A DNA stretch of 23,127 bases from a virus. The stretch is taken from positions 1 through 23,127 of IMG/VR virus record IMGVR_UViG_3300031841_003025, one strand, 5' to 3'. Shown piece by piece: positions 8,075 through 21,065 of the stretch. Both the position numbers and the translations under genes were made by a program. Below the pieces are notes generated by a model. The model saw only the letters and a program-made list of their open reading frames with translations, was not told the origin of the DNA and ran no database searches. Within the stretch, counting starts at the first letter, position 1; every line of letters begins with the position of its first letter.

Positions 8075-8089
8075 AAAATATCCTTTATA

Positions 8090-8097
8090 ATAAATAT
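8090..8097 (-). promoter_or_regulatory. Candidate late promoter motif ATATTTAT (internal to tail operon)
   Basis: Minus-strand sequence in the 24-nt gap before the gene at 8074 reads ACATATTTATTATAAAGG, then ATATTTT and the ATG. It matches the 9635 site in sequence and spacing to the ribosome-binding site. It would give an extra start point for the IIREEVRT gene, gp25 and gp6. Confidence 0.4.
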
Positions 8098-9620: not shown

Positions 9621-9634
9621 ATCACCCCTTTAAA

Positions 9635-9642
9635 ATAAATAT
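9635..9642 (-). promoter_or_regulatory. Candidate late promoter motif ATATTTAT before the tail operon
   Basis: On the minus strand the gap between gp55 and the tail operon reads CATATTTATTTTAAAGGGG and then the ATG. The same ATATTTAT-(3-5 nt)-AAAGG layout recurs before other genes here. There is no TTTG box 19-20 bases upstream, unlike the other promoter class in the window. T4 late promoters have only a -10 box, read by gp55. The motif's reverse complement contains the T4/cyanophage late box (N)ATAAATA, so orientation is open. Confidence 0.45.
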
Positions 9643-10411: not shown

Positions 10412-10695
10412 TAAAAACTCCTATTGAGTAGCTCAACTATATCTCTAATCTCTTTAAACACAAATCCAATTTCATCGTCAGCCTCAAAAGAACCGCGATG
10501 GTCAATGGCTCTAATTCTAGAATTAGATTCGGACATTTTAGTTTTTAACTCTTTAAAGAAATTGTAAAACTCTGTATTAGACTCTTCTAATTCACGTATA
10601 TAGTCTTCTAATTTTTCTTGTCTACGTATTGCAACTACGTTACCAATTATAGAGGCTACTAATACAATAGCCATAGTTATAACTGCATATTCCAT
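10411..10695 (-). CDS. Small membrane protein with cytoplasmic coiled coil
   Basis: A 94-aa protein: one transmembrane helix (about residues 3-23), a basic anchor IRRQEK, a coiled coil (28-62), then a conserved-looking DHRGSFEADDEIGFVFKEI (65-83). I recall this last motif from unnamed proteins of marine T4-like phages; function unknown. I chose ATG 10695 rather than the TTG at 10719, because a GGAGA site lies just upstream of the ATG and it starts 1 nt after the stop of the HD gene, while the TTG would overlap that gene by 23 nt. It is co-transcribed with clpP, the HD protein and gp55. Confidence 0.75.
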   Translation of the reverse strand: MEYAVITMAIVLVASIIGNVVAIRRQEKLEDYIRELEESNTEFYNFFKELKTKMSESNSRIRAIDHRGSFEADDEIGFVFKEIRDIVELLNRSF

Positions 10696-10696
10696 A

Positions 10697-11434
10697 TTAT
10701 TCTCCAAATAAATCTTCAAACAACTTGTTCGTGTTTATCGTTGGCTTAGGACCGCTAGCCTTCTTCTTAGTAGTAGATTTAGCTGGAGCATTATCACGCC
10801 ACTGTTCATATTCAATTCTAGCAGCCATCATATCAGCATGATGTAGAATTACAGGTAAATTAGTACGTAACTTACTATCAGCACTTCTAGAAATGTAATA
10901 TGGTTTATTAGCATCGTCATATAATCCATCATGAATGCGGATTGCTTGGTACTCATTCCATGTTATTGGTACTTTAAAATTTTGAAGGACCCATAGCCCT
11001 AAATCTGGTACCATCGAAAATGGATTATTAGGATTGTATTTATACATCTTTCCTTGATTCTTACGATGCCATTCCGAATCATTGTAAATGTATACTTCGC
11101 CGCCATCATTAGGAAATCCAGCTTTACCTAAATCATGGTGCATTGCTGCAAACATAAGTTCTTCTTTTGTAAAGCCATCTAAACTAGCACCCATCTCTCC
11201 CCATGAAGTATATAACTTATCTGCACAATCCATTACTCGTAATACATGATCTACATAGCCGCCTTCGAAGGCATTATGATAATGATCTACACTCGATGCT
11301 GGCATCGTCATCATACGATCCTCAAAGAAGTCATACATTTTATTTAGCGCTGCTGCGCGTTCCGGAAACCACGATTCGACTCGTTCTCGATACGTTTTCC
11401 AATTTTCTGCAATTTGATCTAATGTTAAACTCAT
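10697..11434 (-). CDS. HD-domain metal-dependent phosphohydrolase
   Basis: A 245-aa protein with a clear HD-domain metal site: HNAFEGGYVDHVLRV (53-67, His53/His63), MHHDLGK (98-104, His100-Asp101), IHDG (167-170) and HHADMMAAR (198-206, Asp201). Members hydrolyse nucleotides, cyclic nucleotides or (p)ppGpp; the substrate here cannot be read from sequence. Similar proteins occur in T4-like marine phages. After a basic linker (STTKKKASGPK, 220-230) the protein ends KLFEDLFGE, resembling the C-terminal clamp-binding peptide of T4-type DNA polymerase (LFDMF in RB69). No Shine-Dalgarno is evident; the ATG lies 1 nt after the clpP stop, so translation is probably coupled. Role in nucleotide metabolism or host signalling is inference. 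Confidence 0.85.
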   Translation of the reverse strand: MSLTLDQIAENWKTYRERVESWFPERAAALNKMYDFFEDRMMTMPASSVDHYHNAFEGGYVDHVLRVMDCADKLYTSWGEMGASLDGFTKEELMFAAMHHDLGKAGFPNDGGEVYIYNDSEWHRKNQGKMYKYNPNNPFSMVPDLGLWVLQNFKVPITWNEYQAIRIHDGLYDDANKPYYISRSADSKLRTNLPVILHHADMMAARIEYEQWRDNAPAKSTTKKKASGPKPTINTNKLFEDLFGE

Positions 11435-11435
11435 G

Positions 11436-12032
11436 TTAATTAACTTGATTAATAATATCTAATTCAACGGCTTCTGTAGGCGATAACCACATATCCGTAC
11501 GTAGCTTTGTCATCCACCACTCTTTATCCTTATTGCTTCTAGCAGCTAATAACTCATACATATTATTTAATGATCTTTCATGAAAAGCAGCTTGTGCTGC
11601 GATATTAGAAATATTCGTATAATCGTTACTAGATGCTGGTTCATGTAGCATAATAGATGATCGTTTACTGGCAACACGAACACCGGTACCTGATAAAAGA
11701 ATTAATGCAGCTGCTGACCATGCACATCCGCGGCATATCGTGTTAAATTTTATACTTGCCGATTCCATGAAATCAATAATACCAAATGCTTCGAATAAAT
11801 CTCCACCAGGTGAATTGATAATTACATTGATCGATTCTGTATTATTTTCTTTTACTAATGCCCGGACTTTAAGTATAAATTGAGACAGCGCATTACCATC
11901 AATTTCACCATTAATAAAAATGACATTATCATCAAAGTCAATCAAATAATGTAGACGATCATTCAATGATGCAGCCTCCGTTGATTGACTAGAATTATCG
12001 CGCTGCGATATATTATCTCCGTATATACTCAT
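11436..12032 (-). CDS. clpP: ClpP-like serine protease
   Basis: A 198-aa protein of the ClpP/crotonase fold, near the size of bacterial ClpP. The catalytic triad is complete by motif: Ser106 in RGCAWSAAALIL (canonical GxAxS), His130 in SIMLHEP, and Asp180 in RTDMWLSPTEA. The oxyanion-side loop NSPGGDLF (73-80) and the C-terminal AVELDIINQV match the family. The first ~25 residues are polar and may be a propeptide. In phages such enzymes act either as a host-type Clp partner or as prohead proteases; no Clp ATPase or capsid gene is in the window to decide. It heads an operon with the HD protein, a membrane protein and gp55, behind a TTTG-N20-TATATTTA promoter only 4 nt from the ATG, so the mRNA may be nearly leaderless. 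Confidence 0.9.
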   Translation of the reverse strand: MSIYGDNISQRDNSSQSTEAASLNDRLHYLIDFDDNVIFINGEIDGNALSQFILKVRALVKENNTESINVIINSPGGDLFEAFGIIDFMESASIKFNTICRGCAWSAAALILLSGTGVRVASKRSSIMLHEPASSNDYTNISNIAAQAAFHERSLNNMYELLAARSNKDKEWWMTKLRTDMWLSPTEAVELDIINQVN

Positions 12033-12036
12033 AACC

Positions 12037-12068
12037 TAAATATATAAACTTCTTCTTAATAAGACAAA
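12037..12068 (-). promoter_or_regulatory. Bacteroidota-type promoter for the clpP-HD-gp55 operon
   Basis: Minus strand: TTTG (12065-12068), 20 bases, TATATTTA (12037-12044), then GGTT and the clpP ATG at 12032. It matches the Bacteroidota housekeeping consensus TTTG-N19/21-TAnnTTTG except for the final A. The expected start site falls at or next to the ATG. Confidence 0.6.
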
Positions 12069-12071
12069 GTA

Positions 12072-12593
12072 TTAGTTAAGTTTTTTCAACTTTCGTTGAA
12101 GTCGGCGCATCTTTACATGGCCGGCCTTAACATCCTTTTTCCACTTTGCTTTTTTTATTTCACCGCGCGTAAATGCAATCTGTTGAAGAATTTGATCTTT
12201 AAGTTCTTCCTTTTCTCTCTTTGAGAGTTTTTTGTTATTTTTAGGTTCGATTTTAGTAGGCTCTAATGTACCTTTGAGATGAGGTTGTTCTACACCTTTA
12301 TGGAATACATTACCTTGTGGATCTACGAATTCTTTCATAAACTGCCATCCACGTGGCCGGCCTTTGGAAACATATCCGCGTCGCGGAGATGGAGGCTCAA
12401 CAGTTTTTTGTGTACAGTTACTACATAAAACGGCAACGGTATCGGATCCGACCTCAGACCAATTTGCACATCTAGGTTTATCTTTAAACTGTTCCCATGA
12501 CCAATGATTTTTATCTTCAATGCTATTACGGCAGATCATAAAACGCTTTCCGTCACGTGTACGCGTTTTAAATGTATGTTTAGTTTTTTTCAT
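12072..12593 (-). CDS. Basic Cys-containing protein, possible zinc binder, unknown function
   Basis: A 173-aa Lys/Arg-rich protein. Four cysteines could form a zinc site: Cys21 (MICRNS), Cys42 (PRCANW), Cys57 and Cys60 (VLCSNC). It is followed by GRPRGWQFMKEFVDPQGNVF (78-97), HKGVEQPHLKG (98-108), and a basic coiled coil to the C-terminus. I recall the GRPRGW...HKGVEQP pattern from unnamed marine phage proteins. A nucleic-acid-binding role would fit charge and zinc site, but is inference. It lies 10 nt downstream of the membrane coiled-coil gene and is probably co-transcribed with it. Two GGCCGGCC palindromes (12119 and 12355) fall in this gene. No Shine-Dalgarno is evident. Confidence 0.75.
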   Translation of the reverse strand: MKKTKHTFKTRTRDGKRFMICRNSIEDKNHWSWEQFKDKPRCANWSEVGSDTVAVLCSNCTQKTVEPPSPRRGYVSKGRPRGWQFMKEFVDPQGNVFHKGVEQPHLKGTLEPTKIEPKNNKKLSKREKEELKDQILQQIAFTRGEIKKAKWKKDVKAGHVKMRRLQRKLKKLN

Positions 12594-12603
12594 AACTTAT
12601 GAT

Positions 12604-13725
12604 TTATGTCCAATACGAATTTCTAGAGTTAGACGATTTCTTTTGTTTCTCTAATTCAGTTTCTTTTGCAATTCGATCTTCTAGCCAACGTTTATCATCT
12701 TGGCTAAGACCTTCTATTGCATCATTAAGTGCCATATCTAACGCATGCTCTTCATCCCACTCCTCATGCTCCGTTTCAGATAAAGCCTGTTCTCTATCTT
12801 CTTGCTTCTTAATAAACTCGGCAAATGATTTATCTTTATCATATGTTAACCCGCCAGATATAACATCCGCGGTATCCTGTAAATGGTCTAGTTCTTCGTT
12901 AGTTGACTCTGAATCTTTCATTACTGTAGGTCCTTTAGTTTGATCAAACGCAAAATTAGCGGCTACTACTAAAGATATAGCCAAAGGGTCAAAAACAAAA
13001 ATTATTATCAATAAAAGTACATTAATAATCTTATCCATCGGTGCGCCGGTGAGGCCTGATAAGTATTTTAATGGACCCAATTCATTGGCTACATCGTTAC
13101 CGGTACGTGTCTCGACTATCTCCGTTTCATAATCAAATAGTTGATTATTTAATTCATCAATCTTGGAATTGATAACCGTTTGACGTTCTATTGCTTGGTC
13201 TAATTGGTTTTCTAATGCTCGTCTAGTCGATGATGATGTTGTAGTAATAATATTACCGTCATTGTCTTTATACTGTATAACGTTATTTGACAGCCCTTGC
13301 CGCAATTCCAATATAGCTGTAGTTACATTTGTTTTCTCATCTGTGTATACAGCCAATTGTTCTTTAACATTATCACGTTTAGTTTCTATTAACTCAATTT
13401 GAGCATCTAGGTTTCCGGCTAACGCAGCCGTTTCTTGATATGCTGCAGATAGGAATCCGTATATTCCAATCGAAGTGATAAGAATTAAAACAATACATGC
13501 AGTAGCTAAATACGCACGTAATAATTTATTTATACGACTCCAGTACTGGTATAGTAACGATGCAATGACCAATTTGGATACTTCCAAAGAACTAGCCATG
13601 ATCAGTACTTCTAAACTAGCGCCGGCAAATAACTTACTAAGTCCTGTAACAGAATAAAATGCCGCAGATGCGGACACCGAGAGTGCGCTAAGTGCAATTA
13701 TAAACGGTAATATCCTGCTCTTCAT
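12604..13725 (-). CDS. Membrane protein with periplasmic/extracytoplasmic coiled coil, unknown
   Basis: A 373-aa protein with four predicted transmembrane segments: about 6-24, 38-58, 72-93 and 232-258. Between the third and fourth lies a long coiled coil (100-205). The C-terminal ~110 residues are acidic, helical and end in a basic tail. The segment VTGLSKLFAGASLEVLIMA (26-44) and SLEVSKLVIASLLYQYW (46-62) is one I recall from conserved unnamed proteins of marine T4-like phages. By the inside-positive rule the KLLR side faces the cytoplasm and the coiled coil the other side. A holin or spanin is unlikely: it is too long and complex. Possible roles are superinfection exclusion or envelope remodelling, unproven. 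It follows the 57-aa gene by 5 nt. Confidence 0.75.
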   Translation of the reverse strand: MKSRILPFIIALSALSVSASAAFYSVTGLSKLFAGASLEVLIMASSLEVSKLVIASLLYQYWSRINKLLRAYLATACIVLILITSIGIYGFLSAAYQETAALAGNLDAQIELIETKRDNVKEQLAVYTDEKTNVTTAILELRQGLSNNVIQYKDNDGNIITTTSSSTRRALENQLDQAIERQTVINSKIDELNNQLFDYETEIVETRTGNDVANELGPLKYLSGLTGAPMDKIINVLLLIIIFVFDPLAISLVVAANFAFDQTKGPTVMKDSESTNEELDHLQDTADVISGGLTYDKDKSFAEFIKKQEDREQALSETEHEEWDEEHALDMALNDAIEGLSQDDKRWLEDRIAKETELEKQKKSSNSRNSYWT

Positions 13726-13730
13726 ACATG

Positions 13731-13904
13731 TTACGACGCGGTGACTCGATCAGTTATAATTTGCAATTTATGGCGCATTTGTCGAAATCGGTTACGAGCC
13801 TCCGCTGGATCAATTGGCATTTTCCGTTCAACTGCCGAATCAAAAATCATAACCATATTATCAACTTCATCAAGAAGTCGTAGTACATTTTCTCTATCTT
13901 TCAT
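13731..13904 (-). CDS. Small unknown protein, 57 aa
   Basis: ATG 13904 to a TAA at 13731-13733 gives 57 aa beginning MKDRENVLRLLDEVDNM and ending QIITDRVTAS, with a helical, charged composition. An AAAAGG ribosome site is spaced correctly, and an ATATTTAT motif (13921-13928) lies immediately upstream, so it looks like the first gene of a transcript running into the membrane protein and the Cys-containing protein. The overlapping plus-strand frame has no such signals. Possibly a small helical regulator or structural peptide; I know no homologue. Confidence 0.65.
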   Translation of the reverse strand: MKDRENVLRLLDEVDNMVMIFDSAVERKMPIDPAEARNRFRQMRHKLQIITDRVTAS

Positions 13905-13920
13905 AATTAAAACCTTTTGT

Positions 13921-13928
13921 ATAAATAT
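13921..13928 (-). promoter_or_regulatory. Candidate late promoter motif ATATTTAT
   Basis: Minus strand reads TTAATATTTATACAAAAGG before the 57-aa gene. Its first base overlaps the stop of the UV endonuclease gene. Same layout as 8090 and 9635: ATATTTAT, a few bases, then the ribosome site. Confidence 0.4.
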
Positions 13929-14980
13929 TAAGAAACTAACAATCTAGAATTTTCTTTGATTGCATCATTCTTATACCGTAAAACGGCTAACTCTTTGGCC
14001 TTGGCCTCGACAACGACATCGATACGATTGCCGTAGCTGTCGATAGGCTTAGTAATGTAATCAGAATGCGCCTGAGCCTTGATCTTCTGAAACTGCTCAT
14101 GCATCTTGGCAAATGTCGGCCAATTGGGCATATCGTCAATGCTAATGCCATGCGACTCACATACACGTTGCAAAGCTAATGTTTGCTCGTCACGTCGCGA
14201 TTCGGAGTAATGAGTACACTGCACGACGTCGTCAGGCCATGTCGAACCGGCTAACTCTAATGCCTCGCGCTCAGATAAGCCGCCGGTATGGAACGTATGG
14301 TGAAAGTAGTCGAATGTAATTGGAATACCAATCTCGCGATGAAATAACTCATACAATTGCACGACACTGTACATACTAGGTTTGTCGTCATTCTCAACAA
14401 CAAGTCGAGCCTTGCATGCATCGGATAGACGCTGCCAATTGGCAATCCATCGCTTGGCCGTTGTCTCATGGTCGCCATAAGCGCCGCCGATATGAATATT
14501 GATCTTGTTATGCGGCGATGGGTCAAAGCCCATGAGATCGAATATCTCAGAATGGCGCTCGAGGCCGATAATAGTCTTGTCTGCAACCGCTTGAGTAGGC
14601 GAACCTAATACATGAAACGGACCGGGATGTGTCGTAATACGATGGCCATGCTGCTTGGCATAGTCGCCAGCAATACGTAACGTATCTGCTAACTCGTCAT
14701 ACTGCGGTAGCTCATGTAGCTCGAATTGATCGTGCCATGGAACAAGCTCGGAGCCTAACCGAAACAAGCGAATATTGTTCTCTTCGTTCCATCGTAGATA
14801 CATAAGCAAGTCGTTGGCGTTAGCTAATGCTAGCTCACCTAACTTATGCAAATCGCGCGTAGGATACCATGTCGCTTTGCGGCAACCGCGAGACGTTGTA
14901 ACACGACCGCCTAACTTTTTGGGCCGGCTCGTCAATGTCATGTTAACACATGCATAACCGACTTGTACTAAATCACTCAT
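13928..14980 (-). CDS. uvsE: UV damage endonuclease (UVDE)
   Basis: A 350-aa TIM-barrel endonuclease that nicks DNA 5' of UV photoproducts and other distortions, starting alternative excision repair. Family hallmarks are all present: GYACVN (8-13), FRLGSELVPW (73-82), THPGPF (117-122), NIHIGGAYGD (161-170), LVVENDDK (193-200), FDYFHHTFH (223-231), CTHYSE (255-260) and DVVVEAKAKELAVLR near the end. Metal ligands by homology are His118, His163, Glu197, Asp224, His227, His257 and a late Glu in VEAKAKE. Local GC looks higher than the neighbours (37-58% in five 60-base lines counted by eye), which may mark recent transfer. A TTTG-N19-TATCTTTA promoter ends 3 nt before the ATG and there is no Shine-Dalgarno, so the mRNA may be leaderless. 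It would protect phage DNA in sunlit water. Confidence 0.95.
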   Translation of the reverse strand: MSDLVQVGYACVNMTLTSRPKKLGGRVTTSRGCRKATWYPTRDLHKLGELALANANDLLMYLRWNEENNIRLFRLGSELVPWHDQFELHELPQYDELADTLRIAGDYAKQHGHRITTHPGPFHVLGSPTQAVADKTIIGLERHSEIFDLMGFDPSPHNKINIHIGGAYGDHETTAKRWIANWQRLSDACKARLVVENDDKPSMYSVVQLYELFHREIGIPITFDYFHHTFHTGGLSEREALELAGSTWPDDVVQCTHYSESRRDEQTLALQRVCESHGISIDDMPNWPTFAKMHEQFQKIKAQAHSDYITKPIDSYGNRIDVVVEAKAKELAVLRYKNDAIKENSRLLVS

Positions 14981-14983
14981 ATA

Positions 14984-15014
14984 TAAAGATAATAACTATT
15001 TCTCAAAGATCAAA
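14984..15014 (-). promoter_or_regulatory. Bacteroidota-type promoter for the UV endonuclease gene
   Basis: Minus strand: TTTG (15011-15014), 19 bases, TATCTTTA (14984-14991), then TAT and the ATG at 14980. The TATCTTTA box is shared with the HAD and 53-aa gene promoters. The start site would fall on the ATG. Confidence 0.5.
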
Positions 15015-15474
15015 ATTGTCCTGGCGCAACTTGCATGCAAGTAATGTCATTTGCTCGCCACATATCTACCACTTTCTGTCTATCATCAAATACACAAAGA
15101 ATATCTGACTTATCGGTAAACAAATCATCCAACCATCCTTGCTTAAGTTTATCATCAGGCATAAATGCCCATGGATGTCCGGTTGGCCGCATCTTCAATA
15201 CATCACACGGAACATTGAATTGATCGAGCCATTTTCTAGTAGCATCTTTAGTTGCTTTACTGCGGCCACTAAAAATAATGATTGTATTACCAGCAGCTTT
15301 ACATGCACGTGCCATTTCAATAACTGGCAAATTCGGTTGGTCTAAATCAATGTTTTTTGGGTCAAAGAAAACATCCCAATCCATTTTACCGTTTGGCTTT
15401 GTCGCTAATTTGCGACGATCTTCGATCAATGCCAATGTACCGTCGAGGTCGAAGATTACAACTTTATTTTTCAT
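15010..15474 (-). CDS. HAD-family polynucleotide 3'-phosphatase (T4 PseT C-terminal domain-like)
   Basis: A 154-aa HAD hydrolase. Motif I is VVIFDLDGTLA (5-15; nucleophile Asp9, acid/base Asp11), motif II FSGRS (68-72), motif III the Lys in PDDKLK (107-112), motif IV CVFDDRQKVVDMWR (127-140, Asp130-Asp131). The tail DDRQKVVDMWR...QVAPGQF closely follows the end of T4 polynucleotide kinase/phosphatase as I remember it. Only the phosphatase half is present; there is no P-loop kinase domain. Such enzymes remove 3'-phosphates from DNA or RNA ends so repair or ligation can proceed. I chose ATG 15474 over an in-frame TTG at 15522, which would add non-family residues and lie upstream of the promoter. 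Neighbouring UVDE suggests a repair cassette. Confidence 0.85.
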   Translation of the reverse strand: MKNKVVIFDLDGTLALIEDRRKLATKPNGKMDWDVFFDPKNIDLDQPNLPVIEMARACKAAGNTIIIFSGRSKATKDATRKWLDQFNVPCDVLKMRPTGHPWAFMPDDKLKQGWLDDLFTDKSDILCVFDDRQKVVDMWRANDITCMQVAPGQF

Positions 15475-15491
15475 ATCTTTTATCTTATACT

Positions 15492-15523
15492 TAAAGATAA
15501 GAGAAAAAAAGTACGAATCCAAA
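15492..15523 (-). promoter_or_regulatory. Bacteroidota-type promoter for the HAD phosphatase gene
   Basis: Minus strand: TTTG (15520-15523), 20 bases beginning GATTCG, TATCTTTA (15492-15499). The 16-mer CTTATCTTTAAGTATA around the -7 box (15486-15501) is identical to the promoter at 21028-21043, and GGATTCG follows the -33 region in both. Confidence 0.6.
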
Positions 15524-15524
15524 T

Positions 15525-15719
15525 TTATTCAGAAATTATTTCCGCATCAGGCACTAAATTGCAAAAATAGAAATGGTCATCTTTTTGTAGTATCGTATCA
15601 CAATGTGCCCATTTCTTTAACAATTCACTATCCAATTCTTTTTTGAAATGACTCCTACGTATAACACGTTCTACAATAAAGAGTTGGTTCTGGTAATCTA
15701 TATACTGATATTGCTTCAA
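15525..15719 (-). CDS. Small unknown protein, 64 aa
   Basis: A short frame with a probable TTG start (15719); no ATG is available near the N-terminus and the Shine-Dalgarno is not obvious, so the start is uncertain. The product YQYIDYQNQLFIVERVIRRS... continues to KKWAHCDTILQKDDHFYFCN (35-54): mixed alpha/beta with two Cys. I recall short phage proteins with a similar KKW.xCDTxL...YFC pattern but no function. It lies between hsp20 and the HAD gene on the same strand. Its stop region overlaps the -33 area of the HAD promoter. Confidence 0.55.
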   Translation of the reverse strand: MKQYQYIDYQNQLFIVERVIRRSHFKKELDSELLKKWAHCDTILQKDDHFYFCNLVPDAEIISE

Positions 15720-15784
15720 AGCGTTGTTAATCGTTCTTAAAATAGGTCTAAGAGGCTGAATTGCGGGCCGGCCTACGTAACTAA

Positions 15785-16186
15785 TTACTTAATCGTAACC
15801 TTAAATGGTTTCTCTTCTTTTTTGAACGGAACGTCAATTGACAACAAGCCTTTTTCTAGGCCGGCCGTCGTACGTTCGACGTCAAATTTGCTAGCCAATC
15901 GCCAGCCTAAATCAAAATTGCGTTTTGCAATTCCACGTTGGATATATTCATCTTCATCGCGGTTATCTTTGCGATATGCGACCCGAATGGTATCGCCTTG
16001 AGCCAGAAGCTCAATATCTTCGCGCTCAGCTCCTACGACTGCAATTTCAATCAAAAGACCGTCTTCAGTCTCTCGAATATCTACTGGGTGATGAACTTTG
16101 GTTTGAAAAGCTGATGCAAAATCTGAATTTGCATTAAACATATCTCTAAACAAGAGATCGAATGAATGTAGTGGATATCTACTCAT
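15785..16186 (-). CDS. hsp20: Small heat-shock protein, Hsp20/alpha-crystallin family
   Basis: A 133-aa ATP-independent holdase. The alpha-crystallin domain spans about 32-122: HHPVDIRETEDGLLIEIAVV (32-51) and the signature AGLEKGLLSIDVP (108-120). The C-terminal FKVTIK (128-133) contains the V/I-x-I anchor used in oligomer assembly; the short N-terminal arm is PLHSFDLLFRDMF. Hsp20 genes are common in T4-like marine phages, where a role in folding virion proteins or protecting replication proteins has been suggested. The start has the strongest ribosome site in the window (AAGGAGGT) behind a leader of about 75 nt and a well-formed promoter, pointing to high expression. Confidence 0.92.
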   Translation of the reverse strand: MSRYPLHSFDLLFRDMFNANSDFASAFQTKVHHPVDIRETEDGLLIEIAVVGAEREDIELLAQGDTIRVAYRKDNRDEDEYIQRGIAKRNFDLGWRLASKFDVERTTAGLEKGLLSIDVPFKKEEKPFKVTIK

Positions 16187-16193
16187 GATTTTT

Positions 16194-16201
16194 ACCTCCT
16201 T
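16194..16201 (-). promoter_or_regulatory. Full consensus Shine-Dalgarno of hsp20
   Basis: AAGGAGGT on the minus strand, 7 nt before the ATG at 16186. Perfect anti-SD pairing is unusual if the host is a Bacteroidota member, where this interaction is mostly not used. Confidence 0.8.
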
Positions 16202-16225
16202 AGATGGTTAAACAAAAAATTTAAA

Positions 16226-16302
16226 AAAATGGCCGACCCGCAGTATCAACCCTTTTTCGAATATAAATATAATGACTATAACAATAAAGGTCAAGCCATT
16301 TT
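16226..16302 (-). repeat. Imperfect inverted repeat enclosing the hsp20 promoter
   Basis: Arms 16226-16238 (AAAATGGCCGACC on plus) and 16289-16302 (AAAATGGCTTGACC on minus) are near-perfect inverted copies about 50 nt apart. The distal arm overlaps the -33 box; the proximal arm lies in the expected 5' leader. Too long a loop for a terminator; an operator with two half-sites is possible. Confidence 0.4.
16264..16294 (-). promoter_or_regulatory. Promoter of hsp20
   Basis: Minus strand: TTG (16292-16294), 20 bases, TATATTTA (16264-16271). It can equally be read as a sigma-70 promoter: TTGACC, 17 bases, TATATT. It therefore fits both bacterial consensus types. An ATATTTAT motif overlaps the -7 box (16263-16270). 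Confidence 0.65.
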
Positions 16303-16310
16303 AATACTTT

Positions 16311-16703
16311 TTAATTTTCACAGATAGCATCAATTTGCGATGTCAATTTGTAGACACGTAAATACCGCCTTGTATCCCATTCTGTTTTTGTTTCGTTAAT
16401 CCGTGTCATGATTAACCCATCCATCCATAGTTTTTTAACAAATGTTCTTAGAAGTTTTAAGCTTGACGAATTTAACCGTAAAATATCACCGTACTGAATC
16501 ACACTCATATAGTCATCGCCATATACAACTTCTTGAAATTGAAACATCATACTGTCCTGACTGTACATGTCTTGCAGATATTTTTCAACTTCTACTTCGC
16601 CGTTGCGATGTATATCTTCAATGAATGCTATTTTTTGCGATGGCGATAACGCAATGAACACATCGAATTCTTCCTCATGTAATTGTAAGTCACTTAACTT
16701 CAT
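16311..16703 (-). CDS. Unknown protein, 130 aa
   Basis: A 130-aa, mostly helical protein. The N-terminal half is acidic (LHEEEFDVFIALSPSQKIAF at 8-27); the C-terminal half has alternating helices and two strands (LKLLRTFVKKLWMDGLIMTR, 82-101, then RRYLRVYKLTSQID), a layout that could be a winged-helix DNA-binding fold. That is a guess from secondary structure. No Shine-Dalgarno precedes ATG 16703; a 12-codon open frame with a GAGGG site ends 4 nt upstream, so re-initiation is possible. It is followed by 124 nt of hsp20 regulatory sequence. Confidence 0.65.
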   Translation of the reverse strand: MKLSDLQLHEEEFDVFIALSPSQKIAFIEDIHRNGEVEVEKYLQDMYSQDSMMFQFQEVVYGDDYMSVIQYGDILRLNSSSLKLLRTFVKKLWMDGLIMTRINETKTEWDTRRYLRVYKLTSQIDAICEN

Positions 16704-16707
16704 GGTA

Positions 16708-16746
16708 CTATAGATTATCTAATAGTAAAGAGAGTGACTGGGTCAT
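16708..16746 (-). other. Possible 12-aa leader ORF
   Basis: ATG 16746 to TAG 16708 encodes MTQSLSLLLDNL. It has a GAGGG ribosome site and the ATATTTAT motif (16766-16773) in the usual position, while the following 130-aa gene has neither. It may be a leader peptide or chance. Confidence 0.3.
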
Positions 16747-16765
16747 GAATACTACCCTCTTTAAA

Positions 16766-16773
16766 ATAAATAT
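16766..16773 (-). promoter_or_regulatory. Candidate late promoter motif ATATTTAT
   Basis: Minus strand reads CTAATATTTATTTTAAAGAGGG, the same layout as the sites at 8090 and 9635, ahead of the 12-aa leader frame and the 130-aa gene. A TTTG occurs 19 bases upstream, so a host-type promoter is not excluded here. Confidence 0.35.
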
Positions 16774-16778
16774 TAGAT

Positions 16779-17003
16779 TTAGTTAGTCTTATCAAACAGA
16801 ATGTCGTGAATATACTTGCATTTGTCTAGCTCAGAATCGAAATGAGAAAGGAAGATATTATGTATTTCAGCTGACTTAGCATCTCCTAGTGATAATACAT
16901 CATATCTTCCTTTCTTAAAAAGTTTCTCGAGTCCTTCGTATCCCAATCGCGAATATTCTAACTTGATAATATCAATATTAATACTGCGACGATGAAATCC
17001 CAT
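16779..17003 (-). CDS. Unknown protein, 74 aa
   Basis: A helical, Lys/Asp-rich 74-aa protein: RRSINIDIIKLEYSRLGYEG (5-24), LEKLFKKGRYDVLSLGDAKS (25-44), then KCKYIHDILFDKTN at the end. No known motif. Its ATG overlaps the upstream stop as TAATG, so translation is coupled to the 91-aa gene. Last gene of the operon that starts with the DUF4494-like gene at 18850. Confidence 0.6.
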   Translation of the reverse strand: MGFHRRSINIDIIKLEYSRLGYEGLEKLFKKGRYDVLSLGDAKSAEIHNIFLSHFDSELDKCKYIHDILFDKTN

Positions 17004-17278
17004 TATCTACTCAATCTCCCCATCATTCCTAAGCGGTACCGCTTCATTGTAGTTTCGCGCGCTGTTTTCATTGTCTCTTCGATAAGTTCCAGTTCATCCC
17101 ATGTAAGATCAAAAGATTTATTTCCGATCATAAATGTTCCAATGACCGGACGCTCTGGAGATTTTTGAAATAAGTTTGCATCGATTGATTGATTACATTC
17201 AAAATCAATTGTACCGTAATGCCGGCCGTAACGGCGAACCTTTTGCTGATCAACAGCATGTCTGTTGTTTATACTCAT
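17003..17278 (-). CDS. Unknown conserved-looking phage protein, 91 aa
   Basis: A 91-aa basic protein. Its second half, PVIGTFMIGNKSFDLTWDEL (44-63), reads as two beta strands followed by a helix, then METMKTARETTMKRYRLGMM-like helix to the end. I recall the GNKSFDLTWDEL pattern from unnamed T4-like phage proteins. No catalytic signature. It lies 3 nt after the methyltransferase stop and overlaps the next gene as TAATG. Function unknown. Confidence 0.65.
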   Translation of the reverse strand: MSINNRHAVDQQKVRRYGRHYGTIDFECNQSIDANLFQKSPERPVIGTFMIGNKSFDLTWDELELIEETMKTARETTMKRYRLGMMGRLSR

Positions 17279-17281
17279 AGT

Positions 17282-17992
17282 TTAGAATTTATAAATAATT
17301 AAAATGAACATGTCATCTGACATTGTATGGTCTAATGCAACATGCCCAAATGTTTTTTGTGCCCAATTAAATATATCACCTGCGTTCCAATTAATCAAGC
17401 CATCTTGTATATTTGTTATGTCAGAAGTTAAAGAAACAATAACGCCTAATTCAGCACATTCATACATTTTAGAAATAGTATCTTTTAGATAATCTAAATC
17501 TGATTTTGAAATGTCTGCATCATAACGCATATTATTTGAATTGACGTTAATACACCATTCGGACGTTACATCATCACTTAGATTAAACCAATCGGCTTGT
17601 GTAACATTAATTCCGTCATTTAATTGCGTACATGCATCGACTAACGGTTGATTAGACTCGATTCCCATATACTGAATATCATTAGTTGTAAGACCGTAAT
17701 TTGAACACAGCCACCGACCGAAATCTCCACGTCCAGATCCAAAGTCTAATATACTACGCGTCGGTTCATCGATATGAGTTGCAACTGCGTTATACATATT
17801 AAATTGTTGCTCTCTCGTTGCATATCCAACTGCCTCTGGAGCATATTGTAAATAGTCCGGATCATTTTGTATAGATGTTTCTAACTCGGACTGTTCTTGA
17901 TCTGTCAATTCAACTTCTTGTAAGTCGTCTGAAATAATCTCTTCCATTTCAGTATCTCGTTTTTTAAATTTTTTTCTTATTCGCTCGAACAT
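17282..17992 (-). CDS. Class I SAM-dependent methyltransferase
   Basis: A 236-aa protein with a Rossmann methyltransferase core. Motif I is RSILDFGSGRGDFG (79-92), which binds SAM; Glu112 in YMGIESNQ (108-115) is the expected ribose-binding acidic residue; QADWFNL (132-138) is the next SAM-contact motif. The N-terminal ~60 residues are charged and may be a separate helix. No NPPY/DPPY or Cys-Pro-Cys motif is seen, so a typical DNA adenine or cytosine methylase is unlikely; a small molecule, sugar or protein substrate is more plausible. The start overlaps the upstream gene by 29 nt; an in-frame Met at residue 16 is an alternative. It sits in a run of small unknown genes with no telling partner. 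Confidence 0.8.
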   Translation of the reverse strand: MFERIRKKFKKRDTEMEEIISDDLQEVELTDQEQSELETSIQNDPDYLQYAPEAVGYATREQQFNMYNAVATHIDEPTRSILDFGSGRGDFGRWLCSNYGLTTNDIQYMGIESNQPLVDACTQLNDGINVTQADWFNLSDDVTSEWCINVNSNNMRYDADISKSDLDYLKDTISKMYECAELGVIVSLTSDITNIQDGLINWNAGDIFNWAQKTFGHVALDHTMSDDMFILIIYKF

Positions 17993-18260
17993 TTGCTTTG
18001 CGTTTACGTCTATTAATTCTATTGATTTTTTCCTCTAATGAAGATAAATCCATACGCATGGGATGAGTACGATTAAAGTTTTGTGTTACTCTGCAAGCCA
18101 TAGCCGCATATTCCCATGCGGTGTCTTCATCATTAGTATCCGGCATGAAATATTCTTCGGCTAAAAAATTACCGTTCGCAACAACTTGCAAGCCAGACTC
18201 CGAAAACTCTATTCGTGCGCTCGGATATTGTTTAAGTACTTTACGTTTAAACTTATTCAT
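17964..18260 (-). CDS. Unknown basic protein, 98 aa
   Basis: A 98-aa protein with a compact N-terminal domain (ARIEFSESGLQVVANGNFLA, 15-34; then NDEDTAWEYAAMACR) and a very basic C-terminal helix (INRRKRKANVRANKKK). The tail would suit nucleic-acid or ribosome binding. Family not recognised, though the layout resembles short unnamed phage proteins. It starts 3 nt after the stop of the upstream gene and overlaps the methyltransferase by 29 nt. Confidence 0.65.
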   Translation of the reverse strand: MNKFKRKVLKQYPSARIEFSESGLQVVANGNFLAEEYFMPDTNDEDTAWEYAAMACRVTQNFNRTHPMRMDLSSLEEKINRINRRKRKANVRANKKKI

Positions 18261-18263
18261 GGC

Positions 18264-18638
18264 TTAGTATGATCTAGCACCGATGGTAGGGAAAATCAAG
18301 TCGTTATACTTTTCAAAATTGCCTACTTTTCCATCATCACCATCAATACGCATTTGTACATATTGACCGTAATTAGCACGCGTATGGCCTAAGCTCTTAT
18401 CAACATACATATGAGTAAACCCTCCATTATCGAGCCACATTTGTGTCATTTGTGGATCAATATACGTACCAGTACGTGATTTACTAACGGTTACAATAGG
18501 AAGGCCAGATCCGCGTTCTGTACGAATATCATAACCTACAATTGTATTCTTCTTTTTACGTACATTCGTAACTAGACCAATTTCGTAGCGGCCTTCGTTT
18601 AAAATAACAACATGATCGCCCTGTACATATTTACTCAT
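18264..18638 (-). CDS. Unknown SH3/KOW-like beta protein, 124 aa
   Basis: A 124-aa protein opening KYVQGDHVVILNEGRYEIGL (3-22) followed by VTNVRKKKNTIVGYDIRTER, a GD-x-V...G-x-V arrangement typical of SH3-like or KOW barrels. The second half has Tyr/Gly-rich strands (HMYVDKSLGHTRANYGQYV). A nucleic-acid or protein contact role is plausible but unproven. The ATG overlaps the stop of the DUF4494-like gene as TAATG. I recall similar unnamed marine phage proteins. Confidence 0.65.
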   Translation of the reverse strand: MSKYVQGDHVVILNEGRYEIGLVTNVRKKKNTIVGYDIRTERGSGLPIVTVSKSRTGTYIDPQMTQMWLDNGGFTHMYVDKSLGHTRANYGQYVQMRIDGDDGKVGNFEKYNDLIFPTIGARSY

Positions 18639-18850
18639 TATCCTTTGTTTTGTGATTCGATAACTTTCATGATTGGGCTAGCCGAAATTGATTTGACTTC
18701 AAAGTCAATTCCGCTATGTTGGAAATCCTCATTAACTAATGCCTCTGCATGTGTTACTGTAGCAGCATTTGCTAAATATGTTTCTGTTTGCCATTTAACT
18801 CCTTTAGGAGTATCTGTAGCGACCTTTACCTTTACTAGATAATAACTCAT
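18638..18850 (-). CDS. DUF4494-like protein
   Basis: A 70-aa protein with the alpha/beta pattern of DUF4494: an initial strand YYLVKVKVATDTPKGVKW (3-20), TETYLANAATVTHAEALV (22-39) matching the family's YLVDAxSFTEAE signature, then FEVKSISASPIMKVIES. DUF4494 proteins are small, of unknown function, and known mainly from Bacteroidota and their phages, so this supports the host guess. It is the first gene of a five- or six-gene operon (to 16779), with its own TTTG-N20-TATATTTA promoter. No strong Shine-Dalgarno; the leader is A-rich, which is the Bacteroidota style. Confidence 0.7.
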   Translation of the reverse strand: MSYYLVKVKVATDTPKGVKWQTETYLANAATVTHAEALVNEDFQHSGIDFEVKSISASPIMKVIESQNKG

Positions 18851-18862
18851 AACTTTTTGTTT

Positions 18863-18894
18863 TAAATATAATAACGATTTATTTAAATTCCAAA
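18863..18894 (-). promoter_or_regulatory. Bacteroidota-type promoter for the DUF4494-like operon
   Basis: Minus strand: TTTG (18891-18894), 20 bases, TATATTTA (18863-18870), then 12 nt of A-rich leader to the ATG at 18850. Same boxes and spacing as the clpP promoter. Confidence 0.6.
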
Positions 18895-18895
18895 T

Positions 18896-19291
18896 TTAAA
18901 ATTGCTTTGGAATCGGTGTTGTTCTACGTCCGCCTTGGGTACGTAATGCTTCTAATTGTTCTGCAATTTCTACTTCTGCTTTAATCAATTGCATTATTTG
19001 AGATCGTTCGCCTAACTCAGACTCTAAAACTTTGAACTTATCAAATGAACCAGTATCGCCGGCAGCTGCTTGTTTAGCAGTCTTTGCTAAACTAACTAAT
19101 CGTTTAGCAATATCATTTCGCAAAACGGAACGTGCCATTGTACCAAATCCAGTAACATATACTTCTGGGTCAACTGGATCAAAATTTTCTATATCTAAAA
19201 TACGTCCATGTTTGCCGTTACCTTCATCGACAATCGTACGTACTTCTTCTCGAATAATTTCTTTAAGTCTATTTTCTAAGTCGTGTTTCAT
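18896..19291 (-). CDS. Unknown protein with N-terminal IIREEVRT helix
   Basis: A 131-aa protein. It opens LENRLKEIIREEVRTIVDEG (5-24), sharing IIREEVRT and 17 identical nucleotides with the tail-operon gene at 7646-8074; the rest is unrelated. Residues 30-55 (ILDIENFDPVDPEVYVTGFG) are beta-like, followed by a long helical region (60-120) and a basic, Gly-rich tail ending PIPKQF. The presence of Ile-Arg-Glu and Val-Asp-Glu triplets near the N-terminus is compatible with T4-type prohead protease sites. Family not recognised. It starts 3 nt after the histone-like gene, without a clear ribosome site. Confidence 0.7.
   Translation of the reverse strand: MKHDLENRLKEIIREEVRTIVDEGNGKHGRILDIENFDPVDPEVYVTGFGTMARSVLRNDIAKRLVSLAKTAKQAAAGDTGSFDKFKVLESELGERSQIMQLIKAEVEIAEQLEALRTQGGRRTTPIPKQF
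19236..19252. repeat. 17-nt direct repeat, copy 2 (copy 1 at 8016-8032)
   Basis: GTACGTACTTCTTCTCG on the plus strand is identical at both places and encodes REEVRT in both proteins. Confidence 0.8.
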
Positions 19292-19294
19292 TTG

Positions 19295-19480
19295 TTACGA
19301 TCTTTTACTTTCAGCTACGGACTCTTTTCTATATTCAGTAACTAACTTTTTAAGTTCACCGATAGATTTACGAGCTCTGGTTGCAGCTGCTTTATTGCCC
19401 TTCTCAACATACTTAGTATGGTTGTCTACAAACTCATTCCAATGAGCTTCCATGTTTGTAAATAATTCTTGTGATGTCAT
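19295..19480 (-). CDS. Hc1/histone H1-like small DNA-binding protein
   Basis: A 61-aa, basic, fully helical protein. KGNKAAATRARKSIGELKKL (27-46) followed by VTEYRKESV is very like the Hc1 (histone H1-like) family known from Bacteroidota and Chlamydiae, whose typical core is NKAAGTRxRKALQELK. Those proteins bind DNA and compact the nucleoid. A phage copy could condense phage or host DNA or compete with the host protein. Unlike cellular Hc1 it lacks a long Lys/Ala-rich tail. ATG 19480 has an AAAGGAG site and the ATATTTAT motif upstream, suggesting late expression. The assignment is by motif memory. Confidence 0.65.
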   Translation of the reverse strand: MTSQELFTNMEAHWNEFVDNHTKYVEKGNKAAATRARKSIGELKKLVTEYRKESVAESKRS

Positions 19481-19496
19481 AACATGCTCCTTTGTT

Positions 19497-19504
19497 ATAA
19501 ATAT
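19497..19504 (-). promoter_or_regulatory. Candidate late promoter motif ATATTTAT
   Basis: Minus strand reads GATATTTATAACAAAGGAG in the 30-nt gap before the histone-like gene; no TTTG box at the expected distance. Confidence 0.4.
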
Positions 19505-19510
19505 CTTAGT

Positions 19511-19726
19511 TTAGATAAAATAATGATCTAACGGATCGACGTTCGTTTGAATAAAACATCTATTAAATGATAGTTCTAACTGTTCCTCATCTATAATATC
19601 CATGTCCTGATATATCAGCTCTCCGTCAAGATACACTTCTCCGATTAGCGTGTCATCATCGACAAAAAACTCTATATCATCGCCTTCGAAGATATCGCCC
19701 GTTTCTATATTTTCTAGAATAATCAT
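19511..19726 (-). CDS. Unknown highly acidic protein, 71 aa
   Basis: A very acidic 71-aa protein (IETGDIFEGDDIEFFVDDDT at 7-26, then MDIIDEEQLELSF). Strong negative charge and small size resemble DNA-mimic or anti-restriction proteins, but no family is recognised. It starts at ATG 19726 without a Shine-Dalgarno; an ATATTTAT motif ends 7 nt upstream (19733-19740). An out-of-frame ATG at 19730 gives only a short peptide. Confidence 0.55.
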   Translation of the reverse strand: MIILENIETGDIFEGDDIEFFVDDDTLIGEVYLDGELIYQDMDIIDEEQLELSFNRCFIQTNVDPLDHYFI

Positions 19727-19732
19727 TCATAT

Positions 19733-19740
19733 ATAAATAT
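19733..19740 (-). promoter_or_regulatory. Candidate late promoter motif ATATTTAT
   Basis: Minus strand ATAATATTTATATATG, between the 58-aa and the acidic genes. Here the start codon is only a few bases away and no AAAGG follows, so the match is weaker. Confidence 0.3.
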
Positions 19741-19742
19741 TA

Positions 19743-19919
19743 TCATCGATGTTGATTATCTCTAACTTTATCATACGCATATTCCCAAACTTCTAACATA
19801 TCTTTAAATCGGTGTTTGGACTGCGTACGCATCTTAGCAACTTGGGCATCAAATTGAGTTCGTAATTTGTGAGTTTCGACTAGAGTGTAAATTAACATAA
19901 AACGATCTTCACGATTCAT
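19743..19919 (-). CDS. Small unknown protein, 58 aa
   Basis: I start this gene at ATG 19919 (MNREDRFML...), which has a GGGGAGG ribosome site, instead of the longer frame from 19997 that merely runs through the 45-aa gene. The 58-aa product is helical: LIYTLVETHKLRTQFDAQVA (9-28) and HRFKDMLEVWEYAYDKVRD. No known motif. It starts 4 nt after the stop of the 45-aa gene and its ribosome site lies inside that gene's last codons. Confidence 0.7.
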   Translation of the reverse strand: MNREDRFMLIYTLVETHKLRTQFDAQVAKMRTQSKHRFKDMLEVWEYAYDKVRDNQHR

Positions 19920-19923
19920 GGCG

Positions 19924-20061
19924 TTACCTCCCCTGTCCTCGATATGCTTTTTTGTAGTTTTTAGAACGCTTGCTTTTACTATGCTTTGTTTTAGCATGAA
20001 CGCCTGGACGCTTCTTTGGGCTACGAGCTGCGTAACCTGTGATAGACATTTTTTTAGCCAT
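19924..20061 (-). CDS. 45-aa very basic conserved phage protein
   Basis: ATG 20061 to TAA 19924 encodes a 45-aa protein starting MAKKMSITGYAARSPKKRPG and ending NYKKAYRGQGR, over a third Lys/Arg. I recall near-identical short proteins (KKRPGVHAKTK...GQGR) from T4-like marine phages. Such charge suits RNA, DNA or ribosome binding; function unknown. An AAAGG site is well placed, and the start overlaps the stop of the upstream gene by 8 nt (ATGGCTAA). The overlapping in-frame shadow in another frame is rejected. Confidence 0.75.
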   Translation of the reverse strand: MAKKMSITGYAARSPKKRPGVHAKTKHSKSKRSKNYKKAYRGQGR

Positions 20062-20311
20062 TGTTAACCTTTGATTTTAAAACTTTTATTTTTACTAAAC
20101 GAAATTGACTATAAGCCAATCTAAAACGATTTTTTAACTCTAATAAATTCTGACGTGACCTAGGTTCGGGATGATCACAATGCATTGGATACTTTACCCA
20201 GAATCGTCCGCGTCGATTTTCAATTAAGCATTTATAAATATGAATGTAAGGAAATGGTTTAACCTTTTTTATGCTTGCCTCGTATGAAATTTCGTTGCTT
20301 TTCGATCTCAT
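20054..20311 (-). CDS. Unknown basic protein, 85 aa
   Basis: An 85-aa basic protein. The core PYIHIYKCLIENRRGRFWVK (21-40) and YPMHCDHPEPRSRQNLLELK continue to a basic helix. ATG 20311 implies a 53-nt overlap with the upstream gene and lacks a good ribosome site, so the true N-terminus may be shorter (a non-ATG start after 20259); only the part from about residue 18 is free of overlap. Function unknown. The ATATTTAT motif at 20234-20241 lies inside its 5' part and could alternatively serve the downstream 45-aa gene. Confidence 0.55.
   Translation of the reverse strand: MRSKSNEISYEASIKKVKPFPYIHIYKCLIENRRGRFWVKYPMHCDHPEPRSRQNLLELKNRFRLAYSQFRLVKIKVLKSKVNNG
20234..20241 (-). promoter_or_regulatory. 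ATATTTAT motif within a coding region
   Basis: Minus strand TTCATATTTATAAATG, inside the 85-aa frame but after the stop of the upstream gene. No AAAGG follows. It may be chance. Confidence 0.2.
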
Positions 20312-20585
20312 CTTTAAGCTTATTTTTATCCGTAGTGTGATCCATGGTATTATGATTCTCCGGAGACTTTACGTTAGTATCTTTGCCTAAGTATTCTTCA
20401 ATATACCATGCCGCTTTCTTCGGTGCGTCCTGCTTCCAAAAACAATTAGGAATGATAGTGCCGGTCCGCATGCGGAATTTATATGACTTATCTTTCATCA
20501 CTTCGATGACAACACACTCTTCGATACCGCCTAAAAAACGGACGGCGGCCATGTCACCTACAACTAACTTTTTCTTCCTGGGCAT
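20259..20585 (-). CDS. Unknown SH3/KOW-like protein, 108 aa
   Basis: A 108-aa protein beginning PRKKKLVVGDMAAVRFLGG (2-20) then EECVVIEVMKDKSYKFRMRT, a GD-x(3)-V barrel opening typical of SH3/KOW-like domains, followed by IIPNCFWK and a charged helical tail ending RGKHKKG. I keep ATG 20585 because the barrel needs residues before Met12; the internal ATG 20552 has a GTAGGTGAC ribosome site directly after the stop of the SWIM gene and may be used too. It overlaps the SWIM gene by 32 nt. Function unknown. Confidence 0.6.
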   Translation of the reverse strand: MPRKKKLVVGDMAAVRFLGGIEECVVIEVMKDKSYKFRMRTGTIIPNCFWKQDAPKKAAWYIEEYLGKDTNVKSPENHNTMDHTTDKNKLKDEIEKQRNFIRGKHKKG

Positions 20586-20847
20586 GTGCTATATGCTTAC
20601 AACGTTTATGAAACTTAAATCCGGTACAATCGCAACTCCAGCGATCGTTAATATTAGTTACCTTATATGTCGACTTACCGTTACTACTAGTAACATTAAA
20701 TGATTGAATCTTTGGCGGTTCTGGACGAATCCATTTAATATCGTTACGTGTAATATTAGACGGCACAGGAATCCAACCTGGGCAAAGATATGTACCAGAT
20801 GCTACCGTTACAATTGCTGGAGCAAAATTACCTTTATACTCAATCAT
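20554..20847 (-). CDS. SWIM zinc-finger protein
   Basis: A 97-aa protein with a SWIM-type zinc finger at its C-terminus: WSCDCTGFKFHKRCKHI (70-86), ligands Cys72, Cys74, Cys83 and His85 (CxC...CxH). SWIM domains mediate DNA or protein binding. The N-terminal half is beta-rich (AIVTVASGTYLCPGW). Short phage proteins with this finger are widespread and mostly uncharacterised. Translation is coupled to the 53-aa gene by a TAATG overlap. It is the second gene of the transcript that begins at the 21034 promoter. Confidence 0.8.
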   Translation of the reverse strand: MIEYKGNFAPAIVTVASGTYLCPGWIPVPSNITRNDIKWIRPEPPKIQSFNVTSSNGKSTYKVTNINDRWSCDCTGFKFHKRCKHIAHAQEEKVSCR

Positions 20848-21008
20848 TATGCAGCAAGATATTCTTCAACGCGCTTACACATTGTCTTGAACTTATAAAC
20901 CGCGTCATCTGCTTTACAAAGTTCGGACTTAACAAGCTCTCCGTTATTACGGACGTTGAGCAATGAACCGCTCAATTCAACTTCGATGTTACCAAAAGTT
21001 TTTGTCAT
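20847..21008 (-). CDS. Small unknown protein, 53 aa
   Basis: ATG 21008 to TAA 20847 encodes 53 aa: TKTFGNIEVELSGSLLNVRN (2-21) reads as two or three strands, followed by a helix ending MCKRVEEYLAA. An AAAGG site is well placed, the stop overlaps the SWIM gene start as TAATG, and a duplicated promoter lies just upstream, so it is a convincing gene despite its size. No homologue recognised. Confidence 0.7.
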   Translation of the reverse strand: MTKTFGNIEVELSGSLLNVRNNGELVKSELCKADDAVYKFKTMCKRVEEYLAA

Positions 21009-21033
21009 AACCTTTATCTTTTAATTATATACT

Positions 21034-21065
21034 TAAAGATAAGGATAATGCTATTCGAATCCTAA
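21034..21065 (-). promoter_or_regulatory. Bacteroidota-type promoter for the 53-aa/SWIM operon
   Basis: Minus strand: TTAG (21062-21065), 20 bases beginning GATTCG, TATCTTTA (21034-21041). The 16-mer CTTATCTTTAAGTATA (21028-21043) is identical to that of the HAD gene promoter. A TATAAT also follows (sigma-70-like -10). Confidence 0.55.

Follow-up and report, generated by a model that had tools for sequence, protein, structure and literature searches.

The virus record IMGVR_UViG_3300031841_003025 of IMG/VR comprises 23,127 bases, and the window analysed here is the entire record; its source is a T4-like virus of Bacteroidota-type bacteria, and its genes lie on the minus strand. The gaps between these genes carry two classes of promoter-like motifs, and we consider it likely that they are used in sequence, class I, a two-block motif, by the sigma-A RNA polymerase of the host, and class II, a single late-type block, by a sigma factor of the phage itself, encoded by the gene at 9656-10411. 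The motif classes, their strand asymmetry and conservation, their segregation in Flavobacterium phage immuto, the family relationship of the sigma-like protein and the agreement of late motif with sigma type across genomes were all computed.

Class I: two-block sites of host type

The initial annotation had read six minus-strand sites as host-type promoters, and their places, letters and spacers are all as claimed there:

12037..12068, minus strand: candidate class I (host-type) promoter before clpP; TTTG 12068-12065, N20, TATATTTA 12044-12037
14984..15014, minus strand: candidate class I promoter before UVDE; TTTG 15014-15011, N19, TATCTTTA 14991-14984
15492..15523, minus strand: candidate class I promoter before the HAD/PNKP-type phosphatase; TTTG 15523-15520, N20, TATCTTTA 15499-15492, the block also given as TATCTTTAAGTAT
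16262..16294, minus strand: candidate dual class I/class II site before hsp20; TTG 16294-16292, N20, TATATTTA 16271-16264, the whole block being TATATTTATA
18863..18894, minus strand: candidate class I promoter before the DUF4494-like gene; TTTG 18894-18891, N20, TATATTTA 18870-18863
21034..21065, minus strand: candidate class I promoter before the gene of 53 amino acids (aa); TTAG 21065-21062, N20, TATCTTTA 21041-21034, the block also given as TATCTTTAAGTATA

The pattern TTG-N19/20-TAT[AC]TTTA occurs six times on the minus strand of the window and never on the plus strand, against a mean of 0.20 and a maximum of 2 in dinucleotide shuffles; the six matches are five of the six reported sites and a single intragenic one at 17398. 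When the count is limited to 12 gaps, 5 are observed and the shuffles hold 0.01 on average. Chance is indeed an unlikely source of these sites, as had been supposed, and the motif is not equally frequent on the plus strand or in coding DNA. The intragenic match, TTG-N20-TATATTTA at 17375-17398 on the minus strand, lies inside the 17282-17992 gene and may itself be due to chance.

The primary sigma factor of Bacteroidota has the consensus TTTG-N19/21-TAnnTTTG. The exact host form TTTG-N17-21-TAnnTTTG is absent from the window, where TTTA stands in place of TTTG; the suggestion that the final A is a phage-specific variant holds, in that it is a feature of the clade to which the window belongs. 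Most class I sites are kept in close relatives. For example, the TTAG of the 53-aa gene site is TTTG at equal spacing in a 96% relative (L082), and the clpP site is unchanged in L162, while L161, a relative of the 80% type, has TTTG together with TATATTTG, which is the exact host -7 form. Before UVDE, 7 of 9 listed relatives have a two-block site although the gap sequence differs. Before hsp20, TTG-N19/20-TATATTTA can be read by eye in the window, L162, L161, L087 and L084 though the remaining sequence differs, and in the more distant L094, L100 and L093 the TATATTTAT block alone is retained, again by eye.

The same architecture extends beyond the close relatives. TTG stands exactly N20 upstream of TATnTTTA[AG] in 12 of 14 sites of the group C relatives and in 10 of 13 of immuto, and when all trinucleotide dyads were scanned without supervision, TTG-N20-TAT, TTG-N24-TTT and TTG-N25-TTA ranked among the strongest. 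In Tenacibaculum phage pT24, whose host is known to be a member of the Bacteroidota, TTG-N19/20-TAnnTTT is found 38 times in sense and 3 times in antisense, and Microcystis phage Mel-JY01 has the two-block architecture with the host's own TAnnTTTG (14:1). The six sites are best read as sigma-A-type promoters of the host with TTTA for TTTG, their promoter activity being deduced from sequence. E. coli-type sigma-70 promoters were also considered and rejected, 42 having been found and 49 expected.

Class II: a second class of late-type blocks

The host-type reading stands for the six sites, a genuine two-block group of the Bacteroidota sigma-A type, but it missed that the gaps hold a second class. 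Likewise, the list of promoter gaps was right for those bearing TTTG and otherwise incomplete: among the gaps of 15-200 nucleotides (nt) in the window, AT[AC]TTTA is present on the sense strand of 11 of 12 and on the antisense strand of none, and about half of these gaps lack TTTG. ATATTTA is the most strand-biased 7-mer, at 9:0 (sense:antisense) in the window and at 32:2, 64:2 and 81:5 in three groups of related loci. (A)TATTTAT followed by A-rich DNA is found in seven window gaps, six of which have no TTG block.

The base that follows the block separates the two classes, TATnTTTA[AG], which has TTG at N20, and TATTTAT, which has TTG at no preferred distance. In the pooled set, 27 of 34 TATnTTTA[AG] blocks are preceded by TTG at N19-20, as against 8 of 182 for TATTTAT (Fisher p 5e-21). 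The 163 non-redundant class II sites read A-TATTTAT-W-W-A-A-A-A, with no conserved base at the -35 position and a G+C fraction of 0.09 over +7..+12. In the window the class II blocks are the following:

8089..8097, minus strand: class II block ATATTTATT before 7646-8074; class II in 9 of 9 relatives listed
9634..9642, minus strand: class II block ATATTTATT before 9222-9620, just past the sigma gene; class II in 9 of 9 relatives listed
13920..13928, minus strand: class II block ATATTTATA before 13731-13904; class II in 9 of 9 relatives listed
16765..16773, minus strand: class II block ATATTTATT upstream of 16311-16703; from the window sequence
19496..19504, minus strand: class II block ATATTTATA before 19295-19480; class II in 8 of 9 relatives
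19732..19740, minus strand: class II block ATATTTATA before 19511-19726; class II in 7 of 7 relatives listed
20233..20241, minus strand: class II-like block ATATTTATA in the 20258-19998 gap; from the window sequence

The first class II block past the sigma gene lies 14 nt beyond its stop codon in the window, and TATTTAT is present in 23 of 30 distinct sigma-downstream regions of relatives, with 2 in antisense. Between the block at 16773 and the 16311-16703 gene, a possible leader open reading frame (ORF) of 12 codons (MTQSLSLLLDNL; 16707-16745, minus strand) was seen by eye.

Gene regions served by the two classes in immuto

Immuto is a Flavobacterium phage with a complete genome and annotated genes, in which the gene regions served by each class can be compared. 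Class I (TTG-N19/20-TATnTTTA) precedes 21 genes of the small-ORF region at 60-78 kb and 1 later gene, and class II (TATTTATA) precedes 2 genes of the small-ORF region and 14 later genes (class split p 2e-7). The class II genes include those for terminase, portal, tail sheath and tape measure and genes of the baseplate region, and are called late because of these virion functions; the small-ORF genes are presumably early.

A sigma-like protein encoded at 9656-10411

In one contig, a weak match to Sigma70_r2 (E 0.004) pointed to a protein of 244 aa next to ClpP; the homolog of this protein in the window (51%) is the unannotated gene 9656-10411. This gene is the last of a group of four:

11436..12032, minus strand: ClpP-like protease (PF00574 E 4.5e-30), first gene of the clpP-HD-small-sigma group
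10697..11434, minus strand: HD-domain phosphohydrolase-like protein (phrog_5889 E 1e-19; Pfam HD E 0.0012, below the cut-off)
10411..10719, minus strand: small protein of the group, with a TTG start in the ORF list and an uncertain start
9656..10411, minus strand: putative phage late sigma factor of 251 aa, with a gp55-like region 2 and a C-terminal helix-turn-helix domain

Homologs of the sigma are encoded in immuto (immuto26A_153, 40%), in Mel-JY01 (44%) and in most related loci that cover the place. In a profile comparison (hhalign) with eight gp55 proteins the match reached E 1.8e-4, and 8 column shuffles and a reversed profile all gave 0.09 or worse; the region-2-like core aligns to gp55 residues 39-156. 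A whole-genome search with the gp55 profile phrog_234 found the immuto homolog (E 0.008) as the sole gp55-like match in that genome. The AlphaFold model of the window protein has a predicted local distance difference test score (pLDDT) of 83, and residues 34-131 are predicted to adopt the fold of sigma region 2: sigma factors dominate the rows listed among fold matches of residues ~30-130 (sigmaE 1or7_B, Z 8.5, root-mean-square deviation (rmsd) 2.3 over 88 residues), and several whole-chain alignments reach into region 4.

The C-terminal part, modelled alone, is a predicted helix-turn-helix bundle (pLDDT 87). In the search with this domain, SigA region 4 (6onu_D) ranks second, with Z 5.6 and rmsd 3.4 over 65 residues, and rows of SRP and PerR tie with it; we do not claim region-4 identity, because SigA region 4 scores no higher than unrelated helical folds, and the resemblance of the models is suggestive only. 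The chain ends in ...VYRKTGRILD, which was compared by eye with the hydrophobic C-terminal sliding-clamp motif of gp55.

Direct sequence searches gave less. BLASTP of the sigma to T4 gp55 was unproductive, as were sequence searches of the PDB with the single sequence and the profile; phrog_234 does not match the window sigma and is absent from the families listed for 51 aligned homologs. We regard 9656-10411 as a sigma-family protein and a distant relative of T4 gp55, the relationship being not a strong one.

Sigma type and late motif across genomes

Motif counts in this section are sense:antisense in tandem gaps. TATTTATA stands at 15:2 in G001 and at 21:6 in immuto, both with a sigma of the window type. 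G010 (L183-L191), a 178-kb contig with a distant UvdE, canonical gp55 (E 4e-59), gp33 and gp45, and TTGACA-type sites, serves as the T4-type control and has TATAAATA at 9:2. In pT24, whose sigma is gp55-like (E 1.4e-7), TATAAATA is again at 9:2 and TATTTATA at 2:9. Over the four genomes with 8-mer counts, the association of sigma type with motif has a Fisher p of 1e-6. pT24 infects a Bacteroidota host and yet uses TATAAATA, so the motif goes with the type of sigma and cannot be put down to the host polymerase alone.

Two further comparisons extend this series. Rhodothermus phage RM378 encodes a distant homolog of the sigma, the hypothetical protein Rm378p020 (L200, 17107-17814; E 8.6e-12), and its tandem gaps favour TTATTTAA (9:1). 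Among the UVDE-distant loci, TATTTAT is at 0:11 without a window-type sigma and at 7:0 with a 40% homolog.

As for the partners of gp55 in T4-type phages, a gp45-like clamp is present in G001 and G009 and was not found in immuto, RM378 or Mel-JY01, and a clamp search with PF02916 gave 0 matches. gp33 (phrog_254) was not detected in G001, immuto, RM378 or Mel-JY01; it was found in the gp55 phage G010 alone, the value for G009 (E 0.016) being near chance.

Proposed order of promoter use

From these results we infer that the blocks mark starts of transcription, and we assign each class to a polymerase and to an early or late phase. Host sigma-A RNA polymerase would read class I (TTTG-N19/20-TAT[AC]TTTA), including the site before clpP; the group headed by that site, clpP-HD-small protein-sigma, would yield the sigma last. 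The product of 9656-10411 would then act as the late sigma and reader of class II, steering polymerase to ATATTTAT(A), with A-rich DNA downstream and no -33 element.

Several observations weigh against this proposal. The window sigma has no significant match in PHROGs or in Pfam, sigma families included, and its link to gp55 rests on the profile comparison, one whole-genome profile match to a homolog, and the fold; the PDB Foldseek matches of its model fail E 0.001, and Z near 8 is common among helical models. TATTTAT is weaker in the sigma-bearing UVDE-distant loci (10:3). Mel-JY01 is a partial exception, as the sigma is present and yet CATATTTATT is at 3:1 and TATTTATA at 7:9. Because genomes that share the sigma are related, the link between motif and sigma represents few independent events. 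Finally, relatives show no clear enrichment of host-type sites in the 2.6 kb before the sigma gene (10 sense and 5 antisense of 23).

Of the alternatives, the one that survives best, although we find it unlikely, is that class II is indeed a late promoter but is read by another phage sigma or polymerase, 9656-10411 being, for example, an anti-sigma or an early regulator. The window protein has no direct profile match to a named family, the window is a fragment in which further factors would go unseen, and the sigma gene belongs to the clpP group, which in the window starts with a host-type promoter. Against it, the sigma homolog is the sole gp55-like match in the complete immuto genome, the presence of the sigma gene tracks the motif, and Sigma70_r2 shows no other sigma in 9 of 10 records, the match in the tenth being a homolog of the window sigma.

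It is rather improbable that all blocks form a single class of host sigma-A promoters, the sites lacking TTTG being weak or having a degenerate -33 element. TATATTTAT does overlap TAnnTTT, the -7 pattern of the host, both classes can accommodate the hsp20 site, and some phage genes must be served by host RNA polymerase; nevertheless TATnTTTA[AG] strictly has TTG at N19-20 and TATTTAT lacks it, even within one genome, the classes segregate by gene region in immuto, and pT24, which combines gp55 with a Bacteroidota host, shows no preference for TATTTATA despite its host-type sites.

A shade less probable again is that class II is no promoter and that it represents a translation or mRNA-stability signal, an AT-rich leader beside the AAAGG ribosome-binding site. 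The block often lies 15-24 nt from the start codon, a purine-rich A[AG]G[GA] is first matched at one fixed offset after it in 40 of 163 sites, and ATA-N10-AGG and TAT-N9-AGG are among the top dyads. The distance to the start codon, however, runs from 5 to 98 nt (5th-95th percentiles), the block becomes TATAAATA in gp55 phages, which is not expected of a signal for the host ribosome, and the G+C-poor stretch directly downstream fits strand opening. The AT-richness of the gaps as sole source of the motifs can be dismissed: the genomes have 30-40% G+C and the gaps are more AT-rich, but the complete strand asymmetry in the window gaps (11 vs 0) and the shuffles already refute it, and block and class persist in gaps that have otherwise diverged.

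Two promoter classes, the first read by host sigma-A and the second by the phage sigma, remain our preferred explanation. A broader generalisation is more tentative, and we put it at slightly below even: a large group of T4-like phages, those of Bacteroidota included, may use one late sigma (region 2 and a region-4-like domain) in place of the split gp55/gp33, TATTTATA in place of TATAAATA, and host-type early promoters. If so, such a protein would be a natural example of the fused late sigma that a T4 review calls non-existent or not found (PMC2988020). If the preferred explanation is right, it would offer a natural test of the printed question why T4 splits the late sigma into gp55 and gp33 (PMC2988020), the sigma type would be a marker that predicts the late promoter, and a large uncultured phage group would gain a readable early/late map; immuto and its host, Flavobacterium sp. 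LMO8, are a cultured system in which this could be tested. Among the papers available to us, none was found on late promoters or late sigma factors of T4-like Bacteroidota phages.

Gene content, relatives and other observations

T4-like phages that infect Bacteroidota are often met in marine and freshwater samples. The window encodes T4-like baseplate wedge proteins (phrog_219, phrog_43/261), and among its other products are ClpP, UvdE, a PNKP-type phosphatase and Hsp20. At 21082-23127 (minus strand) it encodes a phage protein that has at its C-terminus a type IX secretion sorting domain of the CHU_C kind (PF13585 E 1e-14) and contains several repeats of the kind CTDP-A-NYNP-A--DDGSC. By the gp6-like protein, the best cultured relatives of the window are Mel-JY01 (52%) and immuto (42%); many IMG/VR contigs are closer to the window than either, and megablast of the window against phages gave no match. 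Genes of relatives were called mechanically.

Mel-JY01 (L155, PP395634.1 140002-190001) is labelled a Microcystis phage. Its Bacteroidota-type sites, of the form TTG-N18/20-TAnnTTTG, are those counted above at 14:1, on the coding strand, and the phage may in truth infect a member of the Bacteroidota.

Relatives keep the hsp20 leader (16187-16262, minus strand), including its ACTGCGGG(T/C) and its ATC(A/T)AAGGAG-like stretches. The idea of an RNA thermometer in this leader gained no support, since its folding is not unusual (fold z -0.29) and it has no Rfam match.

Comparison with known systems

The sigma-A promoter of Bacteroidota has a -33 element TTTG and a -7 element TAnnTTTG, and in F. psychrophilum TAnnTTTG lies at -12 to -5 (PMC9723704). 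Class I resembles it in having TTG or TTTG and TAnnTTT, a spacer of 19-20, and a place on the coding strand upstream of genes; it differs in that the -7 block ends in A and not G in the window and in immuto, with GGTAT or AGTAT after it in immuto and at two of the window's sites.

The window sigma shares the predicted region-2 fold with bacterial sigma factors of the sigmaE/ECF, sigma-B and sigma-70 kinds, without a significant match to their Pfam families. Unlike T4 gp55 (phrog_234; 185 aa), it has 251 aa and the predicted C-terminal helix-turn-helix domain.

The T4 late promoter TATAAATA (sequence in PMC7892883) is read by gp55, has no -35 conservation and is AT-rich just downstream (PMC2988020). 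Class II, on sequence grounds a probable variant of it, is likewise a single 8-nt block without -35 conservation, AT-rich downstream and, in immuto, placed before virion genes. It is unlike the T4 promoter in that the central AA has become TT, so that TATTTATA is the exact reverse complement of TATAAATA; exact TATAAATA does not occur on the sense strand of the window gaps, which have TATTTAT(A) instead. The late-promoter variant reviewed for Aeh1 (-13/-12) leaves the two central bases unchanged (PMC2988020). The window protein, with its tentatively region-4-like C-terminal part, is a candidate for the fused late sigma whose absence is questioned in that review. Like T4, the window phage combines T4-like baseplate genes with a putative sigma of its own.

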